Positions 3,789 through 23,068 of a stretch of DNA of 29,585 bases are shown here, piece by piece. The stretch lies in IMG/VR virus record IMGVR_UViG_3300027973_000164, positions 1 through 29,585 of that record; one strand, written 5' to 3'. How positions within the stretch are numbered: the stretch's first letter is position 1; every line of letters starts with the position of its first letter. The notes beneath the pieces were generated by a model. It ran no database searches. It saw nothing but the letters and a program-made list of their open reading frames with translations, and had not been told where the DNA came from. This DNA comes from a virus. The position numbers and the translations under genes were made by a program.

Positions 3789-5803
3789 TGGCTACACAAG
3801 AAATGATATTAAAGCTTTCATTTGATGATGAGGGTACGTTTACAGGATTAGAGGATATTAATCAGGAGCTTGAGAAAGTAAATGATAGTACGAAAGCGGT
3901 AGAGAAATCTACTAAGACTCTAAAAGCTCAATATGCTGAGCTTAAGAAACAGCAAGATCAATTCGATCCAGGTACAAAAAAATTCCAAGAGCTATCCGTT
4001 CAGATGGGTGAGCTTAAGGATAGGATGAATGATGCTGCTGATGCTGTTAAGGGAAATACAGGCCCAGCTATTGAAGGAGCGCGTGCATCATTCGGATTAA
4101 TGGGTGAGCAGATGATGAACTTAGATTTCGAAGGTCTAAGCCAATCACTTAACTTAGTTAGTGGTAACTTAGCTAGGCTTAAGCCTGAAGATATTAGCAA
4201 AGGTTTAAAGTCAATGGCCGAAGCTGGAGTTAATGCGTTTAAAGCGTTAGGTAAGGCTATCATGGCTAATCCATTATTATTAGTGGCGGGAATAATTATA
4301 GCTATTGCTATGAATTTTGATAGGCTTATTAAGTTATTCCCATCTCTTGAAAACGCACTAACAGGAATAGATGAGCAGCAAAGGAATATAGCTAAAAATG
4401 CTCAGGCTACAGCAGATGCATCTAAGAAAACTTATGATAATTCAGCTTTGCAAGAAAACTCTTTAAGGCTGCAGGGTAAAAGTGAAAAAGAGATACTTCA
4501 AATTAAGATGAAGAAACTTGAGACATCTATAAAAGATGCTTGGGTTAATTTAGAAATACAAGAGAAACAAGCTCAGTCACAGATAGACGCGAGTAAGCGA
4601 AATGCTGAATTACTACAACAAATAGTGAGAGGAGCATTAGAGTTAAGTGCAGTAGGATTAAGAATGTTATCCGCTCCAATAGATTTAGTTTTAGCTACTG
4701 CTAATAAGGTATCTGAAACATTGGGATTTGGAAAAATAACAGCTATTAATCTTAATGATGAAATAACTAAACTTACAGAGGCAGGCAGTAAGATGGTTAC
4801 TGAATTACTTATTGATCCTGTAGCTCAAGAGGCAGAGCTTAAAGCTTCTTTTGAGAAGCAGAGGCATGAGGTAGAACAGATGACTAGTGATTACCAAGGC
4901 TTTCAACTGTCTATTCAAAAGATGGATGCTGATGCTCAAAAAGAAAAAGATAAACTTGCTGAAGATGATGCTGCTAAACGAGCTGAAAGAGATAAAAATA
5001 GATTGGCTTACGAAAAGCAAACAAGAGAAGATTTATTAAATGAAGAGGAAAGATTAGCAGAGGAAGCTTATCAATTAACATTAACAGCTCAAGAGAAAGA
5101 AATAGATGCAGTTCGAAATAAATATTTTGAGCTGATTAATCTTGCTGAGGAAGGTAGTGCACAACAGTTATTATTTGTAGATGCTCAAGCTAAAGCCGAA
5201 GCAGAAATTGTAAAGAAATATGCTGATGAAGCTAAAGCTGCTGAGCTCAAAGCAGATAATGAAGCTGCAGAAAGAAGGCTTAAAGAAATAGATGATGAAA
5301 AAAAGAAGGAGGAAGCAAAAGCAGCTATACGCATGGCTAACATTCAGGCAGGCTTTGAAATGGCTTCACTTGGATTAGATGCATTAATGAATTTAAATGA
5401 GGCGGCTGCTAAGGGAGATGAGGCTAGCCAGCGTAAGACTTTTGAGCGTAACAAGTTAATGCAGAAAGCTCAAGCTACTATAGCCATGGCTGCAGGAATA
5501 GTTCAACAGTTAGCTGTACCACAAGATCAGTTAACCGGTATGAATTTCGTTAAGGCAGCAGCGTTAGCAGCAGCAGGAATAGCTAACATAGTTAAGATTA
5601 ATCAAACGCAATTCCAAGGTAATAGCAGCCCAAGCGCTGGTAATCTAAATACACCAACAGGCACCAACGCACCTGCTGTAGATTTCAGCGGAGCTAATAT
5701 GCAAGTTAATGCACCTGGTTCTACTGAGACCTATGTGTTAGCAGGTAACGTAGCAAACGCATTAGAGGCACGCCAAAAGATAATAGACCAATCACATTTA
5801 TAG
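3788..5803 (+). CDS. Tail tape measure protein
   Basis: 671 residues, predominantly helical. The N-terminal coiled-coil (~25-95) is rich in Lys, Glu and Gln. A hydrophobic segment lies around residues 155-175 (IMANPLLLVAGIIIAIAM). A long charged coiled-coil (~385-555) with many KAEAE-type runs follows, then Ala-rich helices and a low-complexity end. This architecture and the position in the tail operon are typical of tape measures, which set tail length and span the tail lumen. Using the general ratio of about 0.15 nm per residue, the tail would be near 100 nm (inference). Unusually, the chaperone-like gene lies several kilobases upstream across the circle instead of immediately before it. 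Confidence 0.85.
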   Translation: MATQEMILKLSFDDEGTFTGLEDINQELEKVNDSTKAVEKSTKTLKAQYAELKKQQDQFDPGTKKFQELSVQMGELKDRMNDAADAVKGNTGPAIEGARASFGLMGEQMMNLDFEGLSQSLNLVSGNLARLKPEDISKGLKSMAEAGVNAFKALGKAIMANPLLLVAGIIIAIAMNFDRLIKLFPSLENALTGIDEQQRNIAKNAQATADASKKTYDNSALQENSLRLQGKSEKEILQIKMKKLETSIKDAWVNLEIQEKQAQSQIDASKRNAELLQQIVRGALELSAVGLRMLSAPIDLVLATANKVSETLGFGKITAINLNDEITKLTEAGSKMVTELLIDPVAQEAELKASFEKQRHEVEQMTSDYQGFQLSIQKMDADAQKEKDKLAEDDAAKRAERDKNRLAYEKQTREDLLNEEERLAEEAYQLTLTAQEKEIDAVRNKYFELINLAEEGSAQQLLFVDAQAKAEAEIVKKYADEAKAAELKADNEAAERRLKEIDDEKKKEEAKAAIRMANIQAGFEMASLGLDALMNLNEAAAKGDEASQRKTFERNKLMQKAQATIAMAAGIVQQLAVPQDQLTGMNFVKAAALAAAGIANIVKINQTQFQGNSSPSAGNLNTPTGTNAPAVDFSGANMQVNAPGSTETYVLAGNVANALEARQKIIDQSHL

Positions 5804-7060: not shown

Positions 7061-7984
7061 ATGGCTGATAACTTGACCATCACCTCAACCTACGCTGGCG
7101 AATTAGCGCTACCGTACATCGCAGCTGCTGTCCTTTCAGGGGATACTATTGCAAACAATTACATCAGTGTTAAAGAGAACGTAAAGTACAAAGCTGTACT
7201 TAAGATTCTTGCTTCAACAGGATTAGTTAAAGCTGCTACTTGCGACTTTGACAACTCTACTTCTACCTTAGCTTTAACTGAGAAGGTATTAACGGTTACT
7301 GACCTTATGGTTAATATCCAACTTTGCAAAGCAGAATTTACAAAAGATTGGGAAGCTTCTCAAACAGGACGTGGATTCATCAACGATGTAGTTCCTGCTA
7401 ACTTCTCTGACTTTTTGATTTCTCACTTAGCTGCTAAGGTTGCTCAAGAGATTGAGTGCAATATTTGGAAAGGTAACTGGCCATCTTCAGGATTCACAGG
7501 ATTCAACGGATTACAATACTTAATTGATGCCGGTAAAGGTGGTACACCGGATGTTGACTTTACAACTTCTTTGGATGCTACTAACGTAATTGATAAATTG
7601 CAATTATGTACAGATGCATTGCCTGCTACATTGGTAGGTTCACCTGATTTGAAGATCTACGTTAACCGTAAGACTGCACAGTTATACCGTCAAGCTTTGG
7701 CTACTGCAGGTTACTTGATGACTTACCAAGGTACTGCTACATTCCCATTGACATTTAATGGTTATGATGTGTATGTTTGCCCGGGTATCTCTGACTCAGT
7801 AGTTATCTTAGCTACACGTGAGAACTTAGTGTTCGGAACTGATTTGAATTCAGATTTCAACGAGGTGAAAGTTGTAGATATGAGCTTCACTGATGCATCT
7901 GATAACGTGAGAATGGCTATGCGCTTCCGCGCTGGTGTTCAGTACGCAGTACTTGGTGATATCGTTATCGGATTCGATAACTAA
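7061..7984 (+). CDS. Major capsid protein
   Basis: 307 residues, a usual size for an HK97-fold capsid protein after a separate scaffold. It follows the protease and scaffold genes and has the best leader in the window. Codon use is unlike its neighbours: arginine is mostly CGT or CGC where most other genes use AGA, and Phe, Asn and Asp favour C-ending codons. That is the pattern of a very highly expressed gene. The C-terminal end (VRMAMRFRAGVQYAVLGDIV) fits the last strands of an HK97-like fold. No protein comparison was possible, so the call rests on context, length and codon bias. Confidence 0.8.
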   Translation: MADNLTITSTYAGELALPYIAAAVLSGDTIANNYISVKENVKYKAVLKILASTGLVKAATCDFDNSTSTLALTEKVLTVTDLMVNIQLCKAEFTKDWEASQTGRGFINDVVPANFSDFLISHLAAKVAQEIECNIWKGNWPSSGFTGFNGLQYLIDAGKGGTPDVDFTTSLDATNVIDKLQLCTDALPATLVGSPDLKIYVNRKTAQLYRQALATAGYLMTYQGTATFPLTFNGYDVYVCPGISDSVVILATRENLVFGTDLNSDFNEVKVVDMSFTDASDNVRMAMRFRAGVQYAVLGDIVIGFDN

Positions 7985-9054: not shown

Positions 9055-10816
9055 AATAAAACACGCAGCACCAATGTTAGTTAATCTTGGCGCAGCAATG
9101 CCTCAGGAAGCTAACGAGAAAGAAACACCAAAGGGATGGGTAACATTAGGCGAGGCAAATTCCTTCCCTAATTATTTAATAGATTTATATTACAGCTCTC
9201 CGGTGCATTCTGCATTAACTATGAGCATAGCGTTTATGATAGCAGGCAAAGACATTAAAAGTAATAATCCTGCAGCACAGCGTGAGATAGATAGACTTAA
9301 ACTAAATAGCATTAGACGGCCTGTAGCATTAGATGCTAAGATGCAGGGAGGATACTACTTAGAAATTATTTGGAGCGTAGATAGAAATAGCATAGCTAAA
9401 ATTAATGAGCTGCCTTATGAGAATTGCCGTTTGGCTGTTGCTAATGATGAAGATGTTATACCTGGCATTTATTATTCTAAAGATTGGAATGATATGCGCA
9501 AAAAGAAGAACATCCCTGTATTTATCCCCATGTATAATCCTACTTCAAAAGCAGATGAGCCTTCTCAAGTGCTATTTATTGGAGTAATGACACCCGGCAG
9601 CGCATACTATCCAAAGCCTGATTACTACAGTGCTATCAATTACATAGAAATTACAAGAGAGATAAGCGAATTTTATAGAGCTTTCTTAAGTAATGGTATG
9701 GCACCTTCTTACATGCTGCACTTTAATAACGGTATCCCTGATCCTGAGGAGCAGTTAGCTATCCGTAGAAATTGGGAGACTATGGTAGGTGCAAGAAAAG
9801 CAGGTAAGGTAGTATTTACGTTTAATGAATCTGCAGATAGAGCACCCCGTTTAGACCTTGTGCCTATGACTGATGCTGATAAGCAGTGGCAAGAGTTAAG
9901 CACTCAGTCAAGAGAGAATATCTTAGCAGCTCACCGCGTTACATCTCCTCTCTTATTTGGTATTAGAGACTCAGGAGGATTAGGCAGTAACGCTGATGAG
10001 ATGAAACAAGCTTACCGTATCTTTAATAAGAATATAATTGAGCCATATCAAAAAATCATTACAGATAGCTTTGAAGAGATATTTAAGGGTATGGGGATTG
10101 TGGCTGATATTTATATTGAGTCTAATGATATTTTTGGTGAGGAAATCACTGCTCCAACTGTTGCACAATCTGCAACAACTCAACTTTCTGAGGAAAAAAA
10201 AAAGATTAATTTAGAGCCACAAGAGAAGCCACCAATTTTTACAGATGAAGATGAGACGTGGTGGTGTGAATTCTTAGAAGATAAGGGAGAGATAGTAGAT
10301 GAGGAGGAGTGGGAATTAATCGAAGCTGAGCCTGTTAATCTTGCGTCAGTTAGAAGCTACTCTGATCCTGATAAGCCATCTGAAATGGATAGCGGCTTAT
10401 ACAAAATACGCTACGCATACACAAAAAATACAAGCGCTCAGAGTAGAAAGTTCTGTAGACAAATGGCTAACGCTGCACGTAATGGATATGTATACCGTTA
10501 TGAAGATTTACAAGCTATGGAGCCCGATACTAATGAGCTAAATGAAGGTTTAGCACAAAGAGGTAGCACTACCTATTCGGTTTGGTTATACAAGGGTGGA
10601 GTAAATTGCAAGCATAATTTTGAGCGCAGAGTTTATTTCCGTAAAAGAGAGAAGGGAAGATTCGTTGCTGATAATGGCTTAGAGTCATCAGATCCAATCT
10701 CAGTGGCTAAAGCAATACGCGCAGGCATGCCTTTAAAAGATATAGCTAAAGACTTTGCTACAGCTAATACTCGCCCATTTGATATGCCTGATAATGGCAG
10801 AGTTAATCCAATCTAA
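9047..10816 (+). CDS. Portal protein with C-terminal extension
   Basis: 589 residues from the ATG at 9047. The longer reading at 9038 would begin at TTG and is less likely. The N-terminal ~400 residues have portal-like features: YSSPVHSALTMSIAFMI near the start, a central wing region, and GARKAGKVVFTFNES followed by TQSRENILAAHRVTSPLLFGI, a classic portal clip/stem segment. An acidic linker (~385-430) leads to a C-terminal domain with YRYEDLQAM, KGGVNCKHNFERRVYF and a basic end, which resembles extensions on portal proteins of Bacteroidetes phages. It forms the head vertex through which DNA is packaged. The gene lies downstream of the capsid gene, the reverse of the usual portal-protease-capsid order. 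Confidence 0.82.
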   Translation: MDKIKHAAPMLVNLGAAMPQEANEKETPKGWVTLGEANSFPNYLIDLYYSSPVHSALTMSIAFMIAGKDIKSNNPAAQREIDRLKLNSIRRPVALDAKMQGGYYLEIIWSVDRNSIAKINELPYENCRLAVANDEDVIPGIYYSKDWNDMRKKKNIPVFIPMYNPTSKADEPSQVLFIGVMTPGSAYYPKPDYYSAINYIEITREISEFYRAFLSNGMAPSYMLHFNNGIPDPEEQLAIRRNWETMVGARKAGKVVFTFNESADRAPRLDLVPMTDADKQWQELSTQSRENILAAHRVTSPLLFGIRDSGGLGSNADEMKQAYRIFNKNIIEPYQKIITDSFEEIFKGMGIVADIYIESNDIFGEEITAPTVAQSATTQLSEEKKKINLEPQEKPPIFTDEDETWWCEFLEDKGEIVDEEEWELIEAEPVNLASVRSYSDPDKPSEMDSGLYKIRYAYTKNTSAQSRKFCRQMANAARNGYVYRYEDLQAMEPDTNELNEGLAQRGSTTYSVWLYKGGVNCKHNFERRVYFRKREKGRFVADNGLESSDPISVAKAIRAGMPLKDIAKDFATANTRPFDMPDNGRVNPI

Positions 10817-14889: not shown

Positions 14890-15091
14890 GTTAACTCCTT
14901 TCCATAGCTGGGTGCGCAGTCATTTTTTGACTGTGGCCCACTTTGCGGAGGTGCTTGAGGTAAGTTACCCAACAGCTCAAAAGTTTATTAAGCATCCGTT
15001 TACTATGAAGGTAACTCACATAGGAAAGCTGGCTACAATAACTGAGGAGGAGATACCATACATAATAGAACTAATGAAGGATAGCAAATGA
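14858..15091 (+). CDS. Small HTH DNA-binding protein
   Basis: 77 residues from ATG 14858 or 72 from ATG 14873; both starts lie inside the SSB-like gene. The centre, HFLTVAHFAEVLEVSYPTAQKF, looks like a helix-turn-helix (FAEVLEVS then YPTAQKF as recognition helix), followed by a short helix (EEIPYIIELMKDSK). A 4-nt overlap joins it to the DnaA-domain gene. It could be a Cro-like repressor or replication-region binding protein. Confidence 0.55.
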   Translation: MKAQTMKCHSKLTPFHSWVRSHFLTVAHFAEVLEVSYPTAQKFIKHPFTMKVTHIGKLATITEEEIPYIIELMKDSK

Positions 15092-15576
15092 GCAAAGTAA
15101 TAGATAGAAAGATAGCAGATATATTGCTGCTAATCCCTGCAGATGGGCAGCAGTTCGCACGTCAAAGGTTAGATAACTTAGTGCGAGCTGTGAATGAGAG
15201 TGAGATACCGGAGCTTAAGTGGAAATCAATTAACGGGATAGCAGAATCACTTAACGAAGCTAAGGCTAAGGAAATGCTACAGGTAATATTTGACCATGGC
15301 TACTGCACGTGGGAGCAGCTTAAAGGCAGGAGTAGGCATAGAGAGGTGAATGATATTAGGCAGATATGCATGTGGGTAGTTCGCAACGGTACCAGCATGA
15401 GCTACCAAAATGTAGGGTTAATATTTGTAAGGCATCACGCTACTATCCTGCACGCTATTAACCACGTAGAAGAAATGCTGCAAACTGATCCATTATATCG
15501 GGCATGTGTACAGTCTATTTTAGATAAGCTGCAGGATGCTAATTTGCAGAGAGTGTATAATAAATTAACTCAATAA
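15088..15576 (+). CDS. DnaA domain IV-like origin-binding protein (no AAA+ domain)
   Basis: 162 residues. RSRHREVNDIRQICMWVV (~81-98) and FVRHHATILHAINHV (~113-127) match the basic loop and the signature helix of the bacterial DnaA C-terminal domain, where GRDHTTVLHA-like residues read the DnaA box. There is no Walker motif, so it could bind but not open an origin by itself. The N-terminal 80 residues are helical and unknown. Two TTATNCACA boxes lie 5 kb downstream (20713-20733). Likely roles are to recognise a phage origin, to recruit host replication proteins or to compete with host DnaA. ATGA overlap with the HTH gene. Confidence 0.75.
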   Translation: MSKVIDRKIADILLLIPADGQQFARQRLDNLVRAVNESEIPELKWKSINGIAESLNEAKAKEMLQVIFDHGYCTWEQLKGRSRHREVNDIRQICMWVVRNGTSMSYQNVGLIFVRHHATILHAINHVEEMLQTDPLYRACVQSILDKLQDANLQRVYNKLTQ

Positions 15577-20774: not shown

Positions 20775-21122
20775 ATGAAGAACGAAGAGGCCCTAATCCA
20801 AGAGGCTGTTATTAACTATGTTAATGCTCAGTATCCAGGCACTCTTTACTGTGCATCTGCAGGAGGGGTAAGAACTTCTATGAAACAGGCCATCATGATG
20901 AAGCGCACTGGCTATGTAAAAGGATTCCCTGATCTCTTTATCTATGAGCCTCGTGATGCTTTCCATGGCTTAGCTATTGAAATGAAACGTGAGAAGGGAG
21001 GTGTAGTAAGCTTGCACCAAAAGGAATGGCATAAGAAGCTAACTGAGAGGGGATATTTCTGCGCTATTTGTAAAGGCTTTGATGAGGCTAAATTAATTAT
21101 AGATGAGTACTTACACATCTGA
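20775..21122 (+). CDS. VRR-NUC domain nuclease
   Basis: 115 residues, a stand-alone VRR-NUC (PD-(D/E)XK) domain. Glu10 in the first helix (LIQEAVINYV), GFPDL at 50-54 with Asp53, the EMK core at 69-71 (AIEMKRE) and Gln82 in SLHQKEW match the active site. Such small nucleases occur in many phages and act on branched or otherwise structured DNA, which suits replication or packaging clean-up. It overlaps the sigma-like gene by 20 nt. The start is 5 nt after the -7-like box. Confidence 0.85.
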   Translation: MKNEEALIQEAVINYVNAQYPGTLYCASAGGVRTSMKQAIMMKRTGYVKGFPDLFIYEPRDAFHGLAIEMKREKGGVVSLHQKEWHKKLTERGYFCAICKGFDEAKLIIDEYLHI

Positions 21123-21603
21123 AATTAATAGATGCTATCCCGAATGGCGCAGAGTAGCAGCAACTGTTACCCGGTTAGATTTAGCTGATGAGCTGCTCCA
21201 TGACACGCTACTTAAGATATTAGAAAGTGATATAGATAAATTGCAGGATATTCATAACCGAGGTAAGCTTAACAATTACGTTAGCAACGCTATTAGATTA
21301 TCTGCAAGGTGCAGTAATAGCTCATTTAACTACACTCGTTTAAAATTTGAGAAGATACGAAGTGATCTAAAGAATGATATCATTGATGATGTAAACAAAA
21401 GTGTAGGAATGAGACTTGAGAATGAGCAGTTAGATATCTTTATTAGCAGGCTGCCATACTTTGAGAGGGAGTTATTCTTTCTCTATGCCTTAGATGATTT
21501 CAGCTACCAAGAGTTAGCTCAAGAAACTGGCATACCTTTGAACTATCTTTACCGGACAATTAAGAAAGCTAAAGTAACACTTAGAAATTCGTTACAAATA
21601 TGA
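21103..21603 (+). CDS. Sigma-70-like protein (phage RNA polymerase sigma factor candidate)
   Basis: 166 residues. The N-terminal half has a region 2-like pattern (LADELLHDTLLKI, then KLNNYVSNAIRLSARC). The C-terminal part, LPYFERELFFLYALDDFSYQ followed by ELAQETGIPLNYLYRTIKKAK, matches sigma region 4 with its helix-turn-helix for the -35 or -33 element. Its size is that of an ECF-type sigma. It may redirect host RNA polymerase to late phage promoters. Region 2 is divergent, so promoter melting is uncertain. It overlaps both neighbours by a few bases. Confidence 0.7.
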   Translation: MSTYTSEINRCYPEWRRVAATVTRLDLADELLHDTLLKILESDIDKLQDIHNRGKLNNYVSNAIRLSARCSNSSFNYTRLKFEKIRSDLKNDIIDDVNKSVGMRLENEQLDIFISRLPYFERELFFLYALDDFSYQELAQETGIPLNYLYRTIKKAKVTLRNSLQI

Positions 21604-22106: not shown

Positions 22107-22294
22107 CTATCTTAATTATCTACTTAGTAGGTTTCCTACTGCACACTGGCATCCTTTGCCTAAACATTTACAGACATCAGAGACACCTATCTAACTTCCA
22201 TTGGTATGCTTACATGGGTGTTATCTTTACAGGATTTGTATGGCTGCCTTTTTGGATATACATCACAGTGCTACGTTTTCAACAGCCAAAATAG
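22103..22294 (+). CDS. Small two-helix membrane protein (63 aa)
   Basis: 63 residues, with hydrophobic helices at about 2-20 (ILIIYLVGFLLHTGILCL) and 37-56 (YMGVIFTGFVWLPFWIYITV) and a basic, His-rich loop between. It overlaps the Cys-rich gene by 4 nt. It is the last gene before the second gene-free region. Family unknown; exclusion or membrane-attachment roles are possible. Confidence 0.6.
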   Translation: MTILIIYLVGFLLHTGILCLNIYRHQRHLSNFHWYAYMGVIFTGFVWLPFWIYITVLRFQQPK

Positions 22295-22390
22295 TTTTGC
22301 ACATGTGTATCTTTCATGACAATTCTATTAATATATTTGTCTCATGCGACATATTACTGTAAGACATACTTTTGATTTAGGTTTTGATAC

Positions 22391-22439
22391 AGCTCTGGGG
22401 GTGCGGTCGCATGCACTCTCGGAGCTTATCTTTTTATAG
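22391..22439 (+). ncRNA. Strong hairpin with T-rich tail; attenuator or 3' end of a small RNA
   Basis: AGCTCTGGGGGTGC (22391-22404) and GCACTCTCGGAGCT (22413-22426) form a 14-bp stem with three G-U pairs possible only in + strand RNA. The tail is TATCTTTTTATAG. The loop (22405-22412) is complementary to CATGCGAC at 22343-22350, which could form a pseudoknot or compete with the stem. Confidence 0.6.
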
Positions 22440-22525
22440 ATGGCAAACATCACTCACCTGAGTAAGTCAAAGCTCAGTAACCAATGACTACACTTGCAAA
22501 ACATCAATGCTTGGATCGCACAAAT

Positions 22526-22559
22526 ACTCTTTTAAGAGTGAGGCAGTTTGTTTTTATAG
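22526..22559 (+). terminator. Second hairpin with TTTTTATAG tail
   Basis: ACTCTT (22526-22531) pairs with AAGAGT (22534-22539), and ACAAA (22520-22524) can pair with TTTGT (22547-22551) outside it. The TTTTTATAG that follows at 22551-22559 is identical to 22431-22439. Likely a terminator or RNA processing signal. Confidence 0.45.
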
Positions 22560-22564
22560 GGAGC

Positions 22565-22620
22565 TTTTTCTTTTCTTTCTTTTTCTTTTTACCTTTTTTC
22601 TTTTTCTTTCTTTTCTTTTG
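22565..22620. repeat. Polypyrimidine mirror repeat (H-DNA type)
   Basis: The + strand is T and C only from 22564 to 22619, except A at 22591. Around the centre (22592.5), bases 22566-22592 and 22593-22619 are mirror images at 26 of 27 positions: the C residues at 70, 75, 79 and 85 match those at 115, 110, 106 and 100 (last digits of 225xx/226xx). Such mirror polypyrimidine tracts can fold into an intramolecular triplex under supercoiling. Confidence 0.75.
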
Positions 22621-22639
22621 TTGATGTTAATTAAGTATA

Positions 22640-22705
22640 GCTATAGTTTAGTTAATTAACTTAGCTAATAGCTTAAGCTAATTACACTAATAGTTAAACT
22701 ATAGC
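22640..22705. repeat. Cluster of AT-rich palindromes
   Basis: GCTATAGTTTA (22640-22650) and TAAACTATAGC (22695-22705) form an 11-bp perfect inverted repeat. Between them lie AGTTAATTAACT (22650-22661) and TAGCTTAAGCTA (22669-22680), both perfect palindromes. The group ends 3 nt before the HAD gene start. Confidence 0.7.
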
Positions 22706-22708
22706 AAT

Positions 22709-23068
22709 ATGCATAATGTACATAAGAGAATATTAAGGAGCTTTTTAGCTTTAGAGAAGATTAGCTTTGATTATGACGGTACTTTGACTAATCCTCAAGG
22801 ACTATCTTTGATTAAAAGAAAGATAACTGAGGGATATGATGTTTATATTATCACTGCCAGGGGTGAAGGAAGAAAAGGACCGGTGCTAGATTTAGCTAAA
22901 GAGCTTGGCTTATCAGTAAGAAAAGTTTACTTTACAGGATCTAATACTAACAAGGTGCTAAAGATTAAACAGCTTGGAATCAATAAGCACTATGATAACA
23001 ATCCTGATGTGATTAAGAAAGTAAATGAGCTAACAACTGCAGAGGGAAAATTAGTGAGCTATGAATGA
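22709..23068 (+). CDS. HAD-superfamily phosphatase
   Basis: 119 residues. DYDGTLT at 21-27 is HAD motif I (nucleophile Asp21, acid Asp23), ITAR at 48-51 gives motif II Thr49, and the end has a Lys-rich helix (NKVLKIKQLGINKHYDNNPD) with a motif III/IV-like Lys and Asp. Small phage HAD enzymes of this size resemble the 3'-phosphatase part of polynucleotide kinase, acting on DNA or RNA ends. No kinase domain is present. The start follows the palindrome cluster and has no Shine-Dalgarno site. It overlaps the next gene by 8 nt. Confidence 0.75.
   Translation: MHNVHKRILRSFLALEKISFDYDGTLTNPQGLSLIKRKITEGYDVYIITARGEGRKGPVLDLAKELGLSVRKVYFTGSNTNKVLKIKQLGINKHYDNNPDVIKKVNELTTAEGKLVSYE

Follow-up and report, generated by a model that had tools for sequence, protein, structure and literature searches.

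A mirror-symmetric pyrimidine tract at the 3' end of a predicted structured phage RNA is a candidate RNA-DNA triplex module

Introduction

Whether cells use triple helices, rather than merely being able to form them, is a long-standing question. A pyrimidine mirror repeat in the virus record IMGVR_UViG_3300027973_000164 raises it in a specific form: what does such a repeat do between the genes of a tailed phage? We refer to the whole stretch of DNA analysed (29.6 kb) as the window. The phage most likely infects Bacteroidota; Flavobacterium phage 11b has a terminase large subunit with 46% identity to the one encoded here. The repeat sits in a 414-nt intergenic gap, flanked by genes that end at 22294 and start at 22709. 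An ECF-like sigma factor gene and a terminase-small-subunit-like gene are located close to it. Elsewhere in the window, the phage protein encoded at 15088-15573 carries the C-terminal DNA-binding domain of DnaA (PF08299, E 8e-15) and may be a regulator of replication. A search of the window for tRNA and tmRNA genes returned none.

Results

The mirror repeat in the window

The tract consists of two facing arms:

22566-22592, plus strand: 5' (left) pyrimidine arm, TTTTCTTTTCTTTCTTTTTCTTTTTAC; proposed Watson-Crick strand
22593-22619, plus strand: 3' (right) pyrimidine arm, CTTTTTTCTTTTTCTTTCTTTTCTTTT; proposed Hoogsteen strand

The arms match at 26 of 27 facing positions, and the sole mismatch is A22591 opposite a T. 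Our recount bore out the description in an earlier note on this DNA, a 54-nt polypyrimidine mirror repeat with a single A exception. The range quoted there, 22565-22620, contains the tract but also takes in a G at 22620. The claim that the mirror exceeds what composition would give was confirmed by shuffling. The mirror score of 23 was reached in 0 of 20,000 mononucleotide shuffles (maximum 21, mean 9.9) and 0 of 20,000 dinucleotide shuffles (maximum 22, mean 10.6). Elsewhere in the window, pure pyrimidine or pure purine runs reach 19 nt at most. The tract is a homopyrimidine mirror repeat with a short spacer, as H-DNA formation demands, and perfect mirrors are found among its relatives (for example L010, L207, L304 and L326).

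Relatives and their distribution

Relatives reached through the neighboring HAD-like gene carry a nearly identical tract, and a conserved block that does not code for protein precedes it. The exact arms occur in 87 stretches among 2.9 million viral contigs scanned, and the same scan of 84,980 prokaryote genomes returned no matches. Further scans kept the upstream motifs fixed and left the arms free. They added clades on contigs of 30-35 kb, 60-70 kb and 74 kb, together with five cellular matches, three of which are real elements in two marine Bacteroidota single-cell genomes. Low-complexity pattern matches in unrelated sequence were removed by hand. The total exceeds 80 distinct elements, nearly all on viral contigs. 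Nearly all matches to the RNA core found with unconstrained arms have a mirror or near-mirror tract. The pyrimidine strand is the RNA sense in all members found, an orientation from which the search patterns started and which they therefore partly build in. A core model of 110 positions, mostly sequence, recovers divergent members and misses replacement locus type B and L114/L164 (both described below). Two family elements had no convincing nucleotide match in cultured phages: a match in a Cellulophaga phage falls within a metallophosphatase gene, and one in a Prevotella Lak phage is an unrelated T-rich stretch. A literature search of partial coverage found no description of such an element.

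The cellular copies lie among ordinary genes. A chromosomal role was considered for them and rejected in view of their rarity (1 genome in 396 from the order). In one of these genomes (L357), two copies of the RNA gene, at about 5335-5438 on the minus strand and 10569-10673 on the plus strand, lie about 5 kb apart in opposite orientation within an inverted duplication of about 540 bp.

In six close relatives (L002, L003, L005, L007, L009 and L014), a different conserved sequence of about 330 nt replaces the pyrimidine-tail RNA. The replacement site is upstream of the HAD-like gene and homologous to 22430-22708 of the window. In L014 and L002 the replacement gives a full-length match to the Rfam Betaproteobacteria-1 RNA (RF02932) that stays under the gathering threshold (for L014, 35.8 bits and E 3e-5). 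Most replacement loci retain the leader hairpin of the RNA gene, and the 3' module looks exchangeable.

Two viral contigs of 145 and 72 kb (L114, 1089-1137, and L164, about 7134-7182, both minus strand) carry the identical 21-nt mirror arms around a different loop, GTGTTAC. Their context is unrelated and without the pseudoknot RNA, and a terminator-like hairpin lies on either side of the arms.

The commonest neighbor gene cluster, apparently the sigma factor of window 21103-21603, occurs at 76 loci, at varying distances from the element. A fixed neighbor gene was ruled out as a clue to function: the setting differs between clades, with lysis genes in one and terminase in others.

A predicted structured-RNA gene upstream of the arms

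The region had been described as free of genes. This holds for protein genes, but the tract forms the 3' part of what is predicted to be a conserved structured-RNA gene, about 22332-22620. The order of its elements is promoter box, leader hairpin, pseudoknot, hairpins, GTTTGTTTTT, purine run and the two pyrimidine arms:

22332-22339, plus strand: predicted Bacteroidota-type -7 promoter box (TAnnTTTG), TATATTTG; recurs at a fixed distance in relatives
22344-22350, plus strand: 5' leader segment ATGCGAC, complementary to the leader-hairpin loop
22391-22426, plus strand: leader hairpin with a 15-pair stem (terminator-like scan), then a T-rich run; loop partner GTCGCAT at 22406-22412
22458-22514, plus strand: H-type pseudoknot and hairpin P2; covariation over 18 distinct sequences
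22458-22462/22473-22477, plus strand: pseudoknot stem P1
22466-22468/22486-22488, plus strand: pseudoknot stem PK
22496-22499/22507-22510, plus strand: hairpin P2
22525-22539, plus strand: hairpin P3 (ACTCTT/AAGAGT) in alignment A1; variable or missing in other clades
22546-22555, plus strand: GTTTGTTTTT motif, close to invariant in alignment A1
22558-22563, plus strand: purine run AGGGAG, usually GGGGG in relatives

The promoter box recurs. It is present in 32 of 32 elements of the TAGCAGTAAATCTAC clade, at -102 to -107 from the G-run, and in 6 of 6 of the 60-70 kb-phage clade; 28 of 106 shuffled upstream regions have one anywhere in 300 nt. No obvious -33 element was found in the window's own clade. 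In one clade the box is directly 5' of the pseudoknot (32 of 32 elements). In other clades, including that of the window, an additional hairpin in the leader follows the box, and the 5' end of the RNA pairs with its loop. The exact complement to this loop is mostly 6-10 nt long in relatives and mostly 4-5 nt in shuffled leaders. The paired sequences vary (ATGCGAC, CAGGGTG, GTTCAG, AATGCAA; 22340-22426 in the window) while the complementarity stays.

The RNA structure covaries. In alignment A2 (18 distinct sequences) P1 and PK are paired in 100% of cases, with double-sided changes at 6 pairs. Pseudoknot covariation is 0.321, compared to 0.090 for shuffled alignments and at most 0.047 for slid controls. 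P1 occurs as CTGAG/CTCAG, CTGCG/CGCAG, CTTCG/CGAAG and CCGCG/CGCGG, and PK as GTC/GAC, GAC/GTC and GGC/GCC. P3 variants among relatives include GCTC/GAGC and GCTTC/GAAGC. A G-run occurs in almost every relative and reads GAGAGAGG in L134. Fold prediction for the RNA leaves the pyrimidine tract unpaired, and conservation ends beyond it.

Rfam 15 has no match in the window, a known RNA family being rejected by the gathering and E-value thresholds, and near the relatives' elements it gives only sub-threshold matches at chance level. No intrinsic terminator, with a G+C-rich hairpin immediately followed by T residues, is present at the tract; the leader hairpin at 22391-22426 is the only terminator-like site of the region. 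The proposed transcript, 22332-22620, contains no pure purine run of at least 15 nt. Just 3' of the tract, at 22626-22709, are AT-rich inverted repeats (TATAGCTATAGTTTA / TAAACTATAGCAATA, 93% complementary) that are variable among relatives.

Co-evolution of the two arms

The arms of different elements differ in sequence and still mirror each other. In 31 distinct arm pairs, a mean of 95% of facing positions agree within an element, compared to 70% when arms are exchanged between families. The alignment score is 0.905 and falls to 0.68 (at most 0.71) once the T-runs are put in shuffled order. From outside to inside, the T-run lengths are the same in both arms of an element: 4,4,3,5,4 in L233, 4,3,5,4 in L241, 4,4,3,4,8 in L304, 4,3,4,5,7 in L326, 4,4,3,3,5 in L302 and 4,4,3,6 in L207. 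L241 and L253 share 95 identical upstream nucleotides, yet one TTTTC unit differs in both arms alike. In L298, on a 74 kb contig, the inner arms are quite different and still mirrored over 34 nt with one exception. The mirror is broken or bulged in L200-type elements and L297, and in the 30-kb phages the arm sequence is almost invariant.

We connected 24 distinct tracts by a minimum spanning tree based on upstream similarity, which is not a rooted phylogeny. Both arms change along 18 edges, although a few of these differ just by the assignment of loop-adjacent bases to arms. The right arm alone changes along 4 edges, the loop alone along 1 and the left arm alone along 0. The four right-only edges are always C/G or A/G swaps.

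The earlier note had named loss of mirror symmetry in relatives that stay pyrimidine-rich as evidence against its reading. The opposite was found: the sequence shifts and the mirror persists. Since mirror symmetry is kept while the sequence changes, the facing of the arms, and hence triplex potential, appears to be under selection. Ordinary templated synthesis can yield inverted copies but no mirror copies, which makes such selection the natural reading.

Triplex reading and strand polarity

Facing T/T and C/C positions are poor duplex partners, but they are correct around a purine strand, as T.A-T and C+.G-C. Third-strand triads include C+.GC, T.AT, G.GC and G.TA, and G.G-C and G.T-A are described as tolerated in parallel triplexes. 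Facing pairs in the 31 arm pairs are T/T (623), C/C (123), left C with right G (15) and left A with right G (3). The left arm has no G in this set; outside it, L311 has one left G, opposite a G. With the left arm as the Watson-Crick strand and the right arm as the Hoogsteen strand, the lopsided exceptions would read as G.G-C and G.T-A triads. All four one-sided changes agree with this polarity. Thus the arms co-evolve with an asymmetry like that of a third strand, and their changes follow the rule expected of a Y.R-Y triplex in which the 5' arm would be the Watson-Crick and the 3' arm the Hoogsteen strand.

Discussion

Sequence comparison makes a triplex of some kind at this locus probable. 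Which kind is less certain. The fixed place behind a promoter box and a structured RNA suggests a triplex between an RNA tail and DNA, not a bare H-DNA site. The triplex potential proposed earlier is strengthened by the mirror kept across relatives. The further suggestions of the earlier note, stalling of replication or transcription or an initiation site, gained no support from the analysis. Specifically, a small structured phage RNA would be transcribed from 22332 to 22620, with the mirror repeat as its 3' tail. Together with the purine strand of the DNA that encodes it (the template strand), the tail would build a Y.R-Y triple helix. The 5' arm, either as DNA or as R-loop RNA seeded by the purine run, would be the Watson-Crick pyrimidine strand, and the 3' arm RNA would fold back as the parallel Hoogsteen strand. 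As a result, the structured RNA may be held on the phage DNA, its 3' end may be formed, or both. As to its role, our leading guess is that it would mark phage DNA for replication or transcription, or regulate its use in them, much as a persistent RNA-DNA hybrid does. We infer transcription, triplex formation, the involvement of RNA rather than DNA alone and the downstream role.

We give the triplex between the 3' tail and its own DNA nearly even odds. A purine run as the R-loop seed is plausible. Hybrids of pyrimidine RNA with purine DNA (rY:dR) are the weakest kind, and therefore the R-loop would depend on the third strand. C+.GC triads require low pH or compensating conditions. RNA third strands are reportedly preferred over DNA ones (PMC4783943). 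Counting against this explanation, L200-type elements and L297 have an imperfect mirror, and the near-invariant arms in the 30-kb phages exceed what triplex rules alone demand.

The strongest competitor, itself rather unlikely, is H-DNA formed by DNA only. Here the pyrimidine strand would fold back when the DNA is negatively supercoiled, for instance in the wake of transcription of the RNA, and its 3' half would become the third strand (H-y3). The purine single strand would serve as a replication, recombination or packaging site, and the RNA would merely lie upstream. Mirror covariation and its asymmetry suit DNA equally well, and L114 and L164 have identical arms without the RNA. Nevertheless, the tract has a constant place and sense behind the structured RNA and, where upstream sequence is available, usually a promoter box. 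Neighboring genes differ by clade, so the elements have no packaging or origin context in common. With a predicted promoter-driven structured RNA and the pyrimidine strand in the RNA sense, an RNA-DNA triplex is at least as likely as DNA-only H-DNA. A diffusible RNA could instead act in trans, gripping a purine-rich single strand (RNA or DNA, of the host or the phage) between a Watson-Crick-paired arm and a Hoogsteen-paired arm. Such a two-armed clamp needs exactly mirrored arms, the RNA is structured and possibly diffusible, and the arms are nearly fixed in 30-kb phages. We nonetheless consider it improbable: purine targets in the window are no commoner than for shuffled arms, and the arms differ between elements with near-identical RNA, which a cis target fits better.

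Two further explanations dispense with a triplex. A tail that binds a protein with U/C preference, or acts in transcription termination, would account for a U-rich, predicted single-stranded segment that closes the conserved region. It leaves the coordinated two-arm changes and the lack of left-only changes unexplained, templated copying yields inverted but no mirror copies, and we judge it about as improbable as the clamp. Hydrophobic-peptide coding has in its favor that polypyrimidine codons specify Phe, Leu, Ser and Pro and that reading frames are often open through the tract; but tract length modulo 3 varies among elements, and therefore the tract is not coding. Chance low complexity is disfavored by 0 of 40,000 shuffles, and an assembly artefact by the recurrence of the arms in many assemblies (87 viral stretches). 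Together, chance, artefact and coding are very improbable.

Returning to the RNA-tail triplex, the locus may represent an undescribed family of phage small RNAs in which the 3' tail is a genetically maintained triplex module. By a sequence-specific RNA-DNA triple helix with its own gene, the tail would tether the structured RNA to the viral genome. We rate this description just short of an even chance. Evolution has apparently run the compensatory-mutation test many times: the arms change jointly, and where a change is one-sided, as in a few cases, it is confined to a single arm and of a kind that a third strand could accommodate. If the proposal is true, covariation by itself would have revealed a natural triplex of bacteria or phages, and a compact system with dozens of variants for studying triplex function in them.

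The element resembles known systems in part. Like H-DNA-forming Y.R-Y mirror repeats, it is a polypyrimidine mirror repeat with a short loop, its arms being 19-34 nt. It differs in being attached to a predicted structured RNA gene of phages and in the coordinated evolution of its arms across many families. Bacterial intrastrand triplex motifs are likewise natural triplex-prone sequences conserved in prokaryotes, but their triplexes involve a single DNA strand folded on itself, and the characterized example is G/C-rich (Sinn et al. 2015, PMC4666352). The phage element is a two-arm pyrimidine mirror and requires a complementary purine strand. The large ornate RNAs GOLLD and ROOL are also structured non-coding RNAs of phages and metagenomes; the phage element is much smaller, with a triplex-prone tail and no Rfam match. 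In the MALAT1 and PAN ENE elements, two U-rich segments surround a purine strand in the 3' region of the RNA. The phage RNA shares the two facing U-rich segments but has no purine strand complementary to its arms, and the tract is unpaired in the predicted fold, so the purine strand must come from DNA or another RNA. ColE1 RNA II is a structured RNA followed by a G-run, and it forms a persistent RNA-DNA hybrid that RNase H processes and a DNA polymerase then extends. The phage element differs in its mirror-symmetric pyrimidine tail and its Bacteroidota phage carriers, and shares the G-run, the structured RNA and, as proposed here, a stay on its own DNA.
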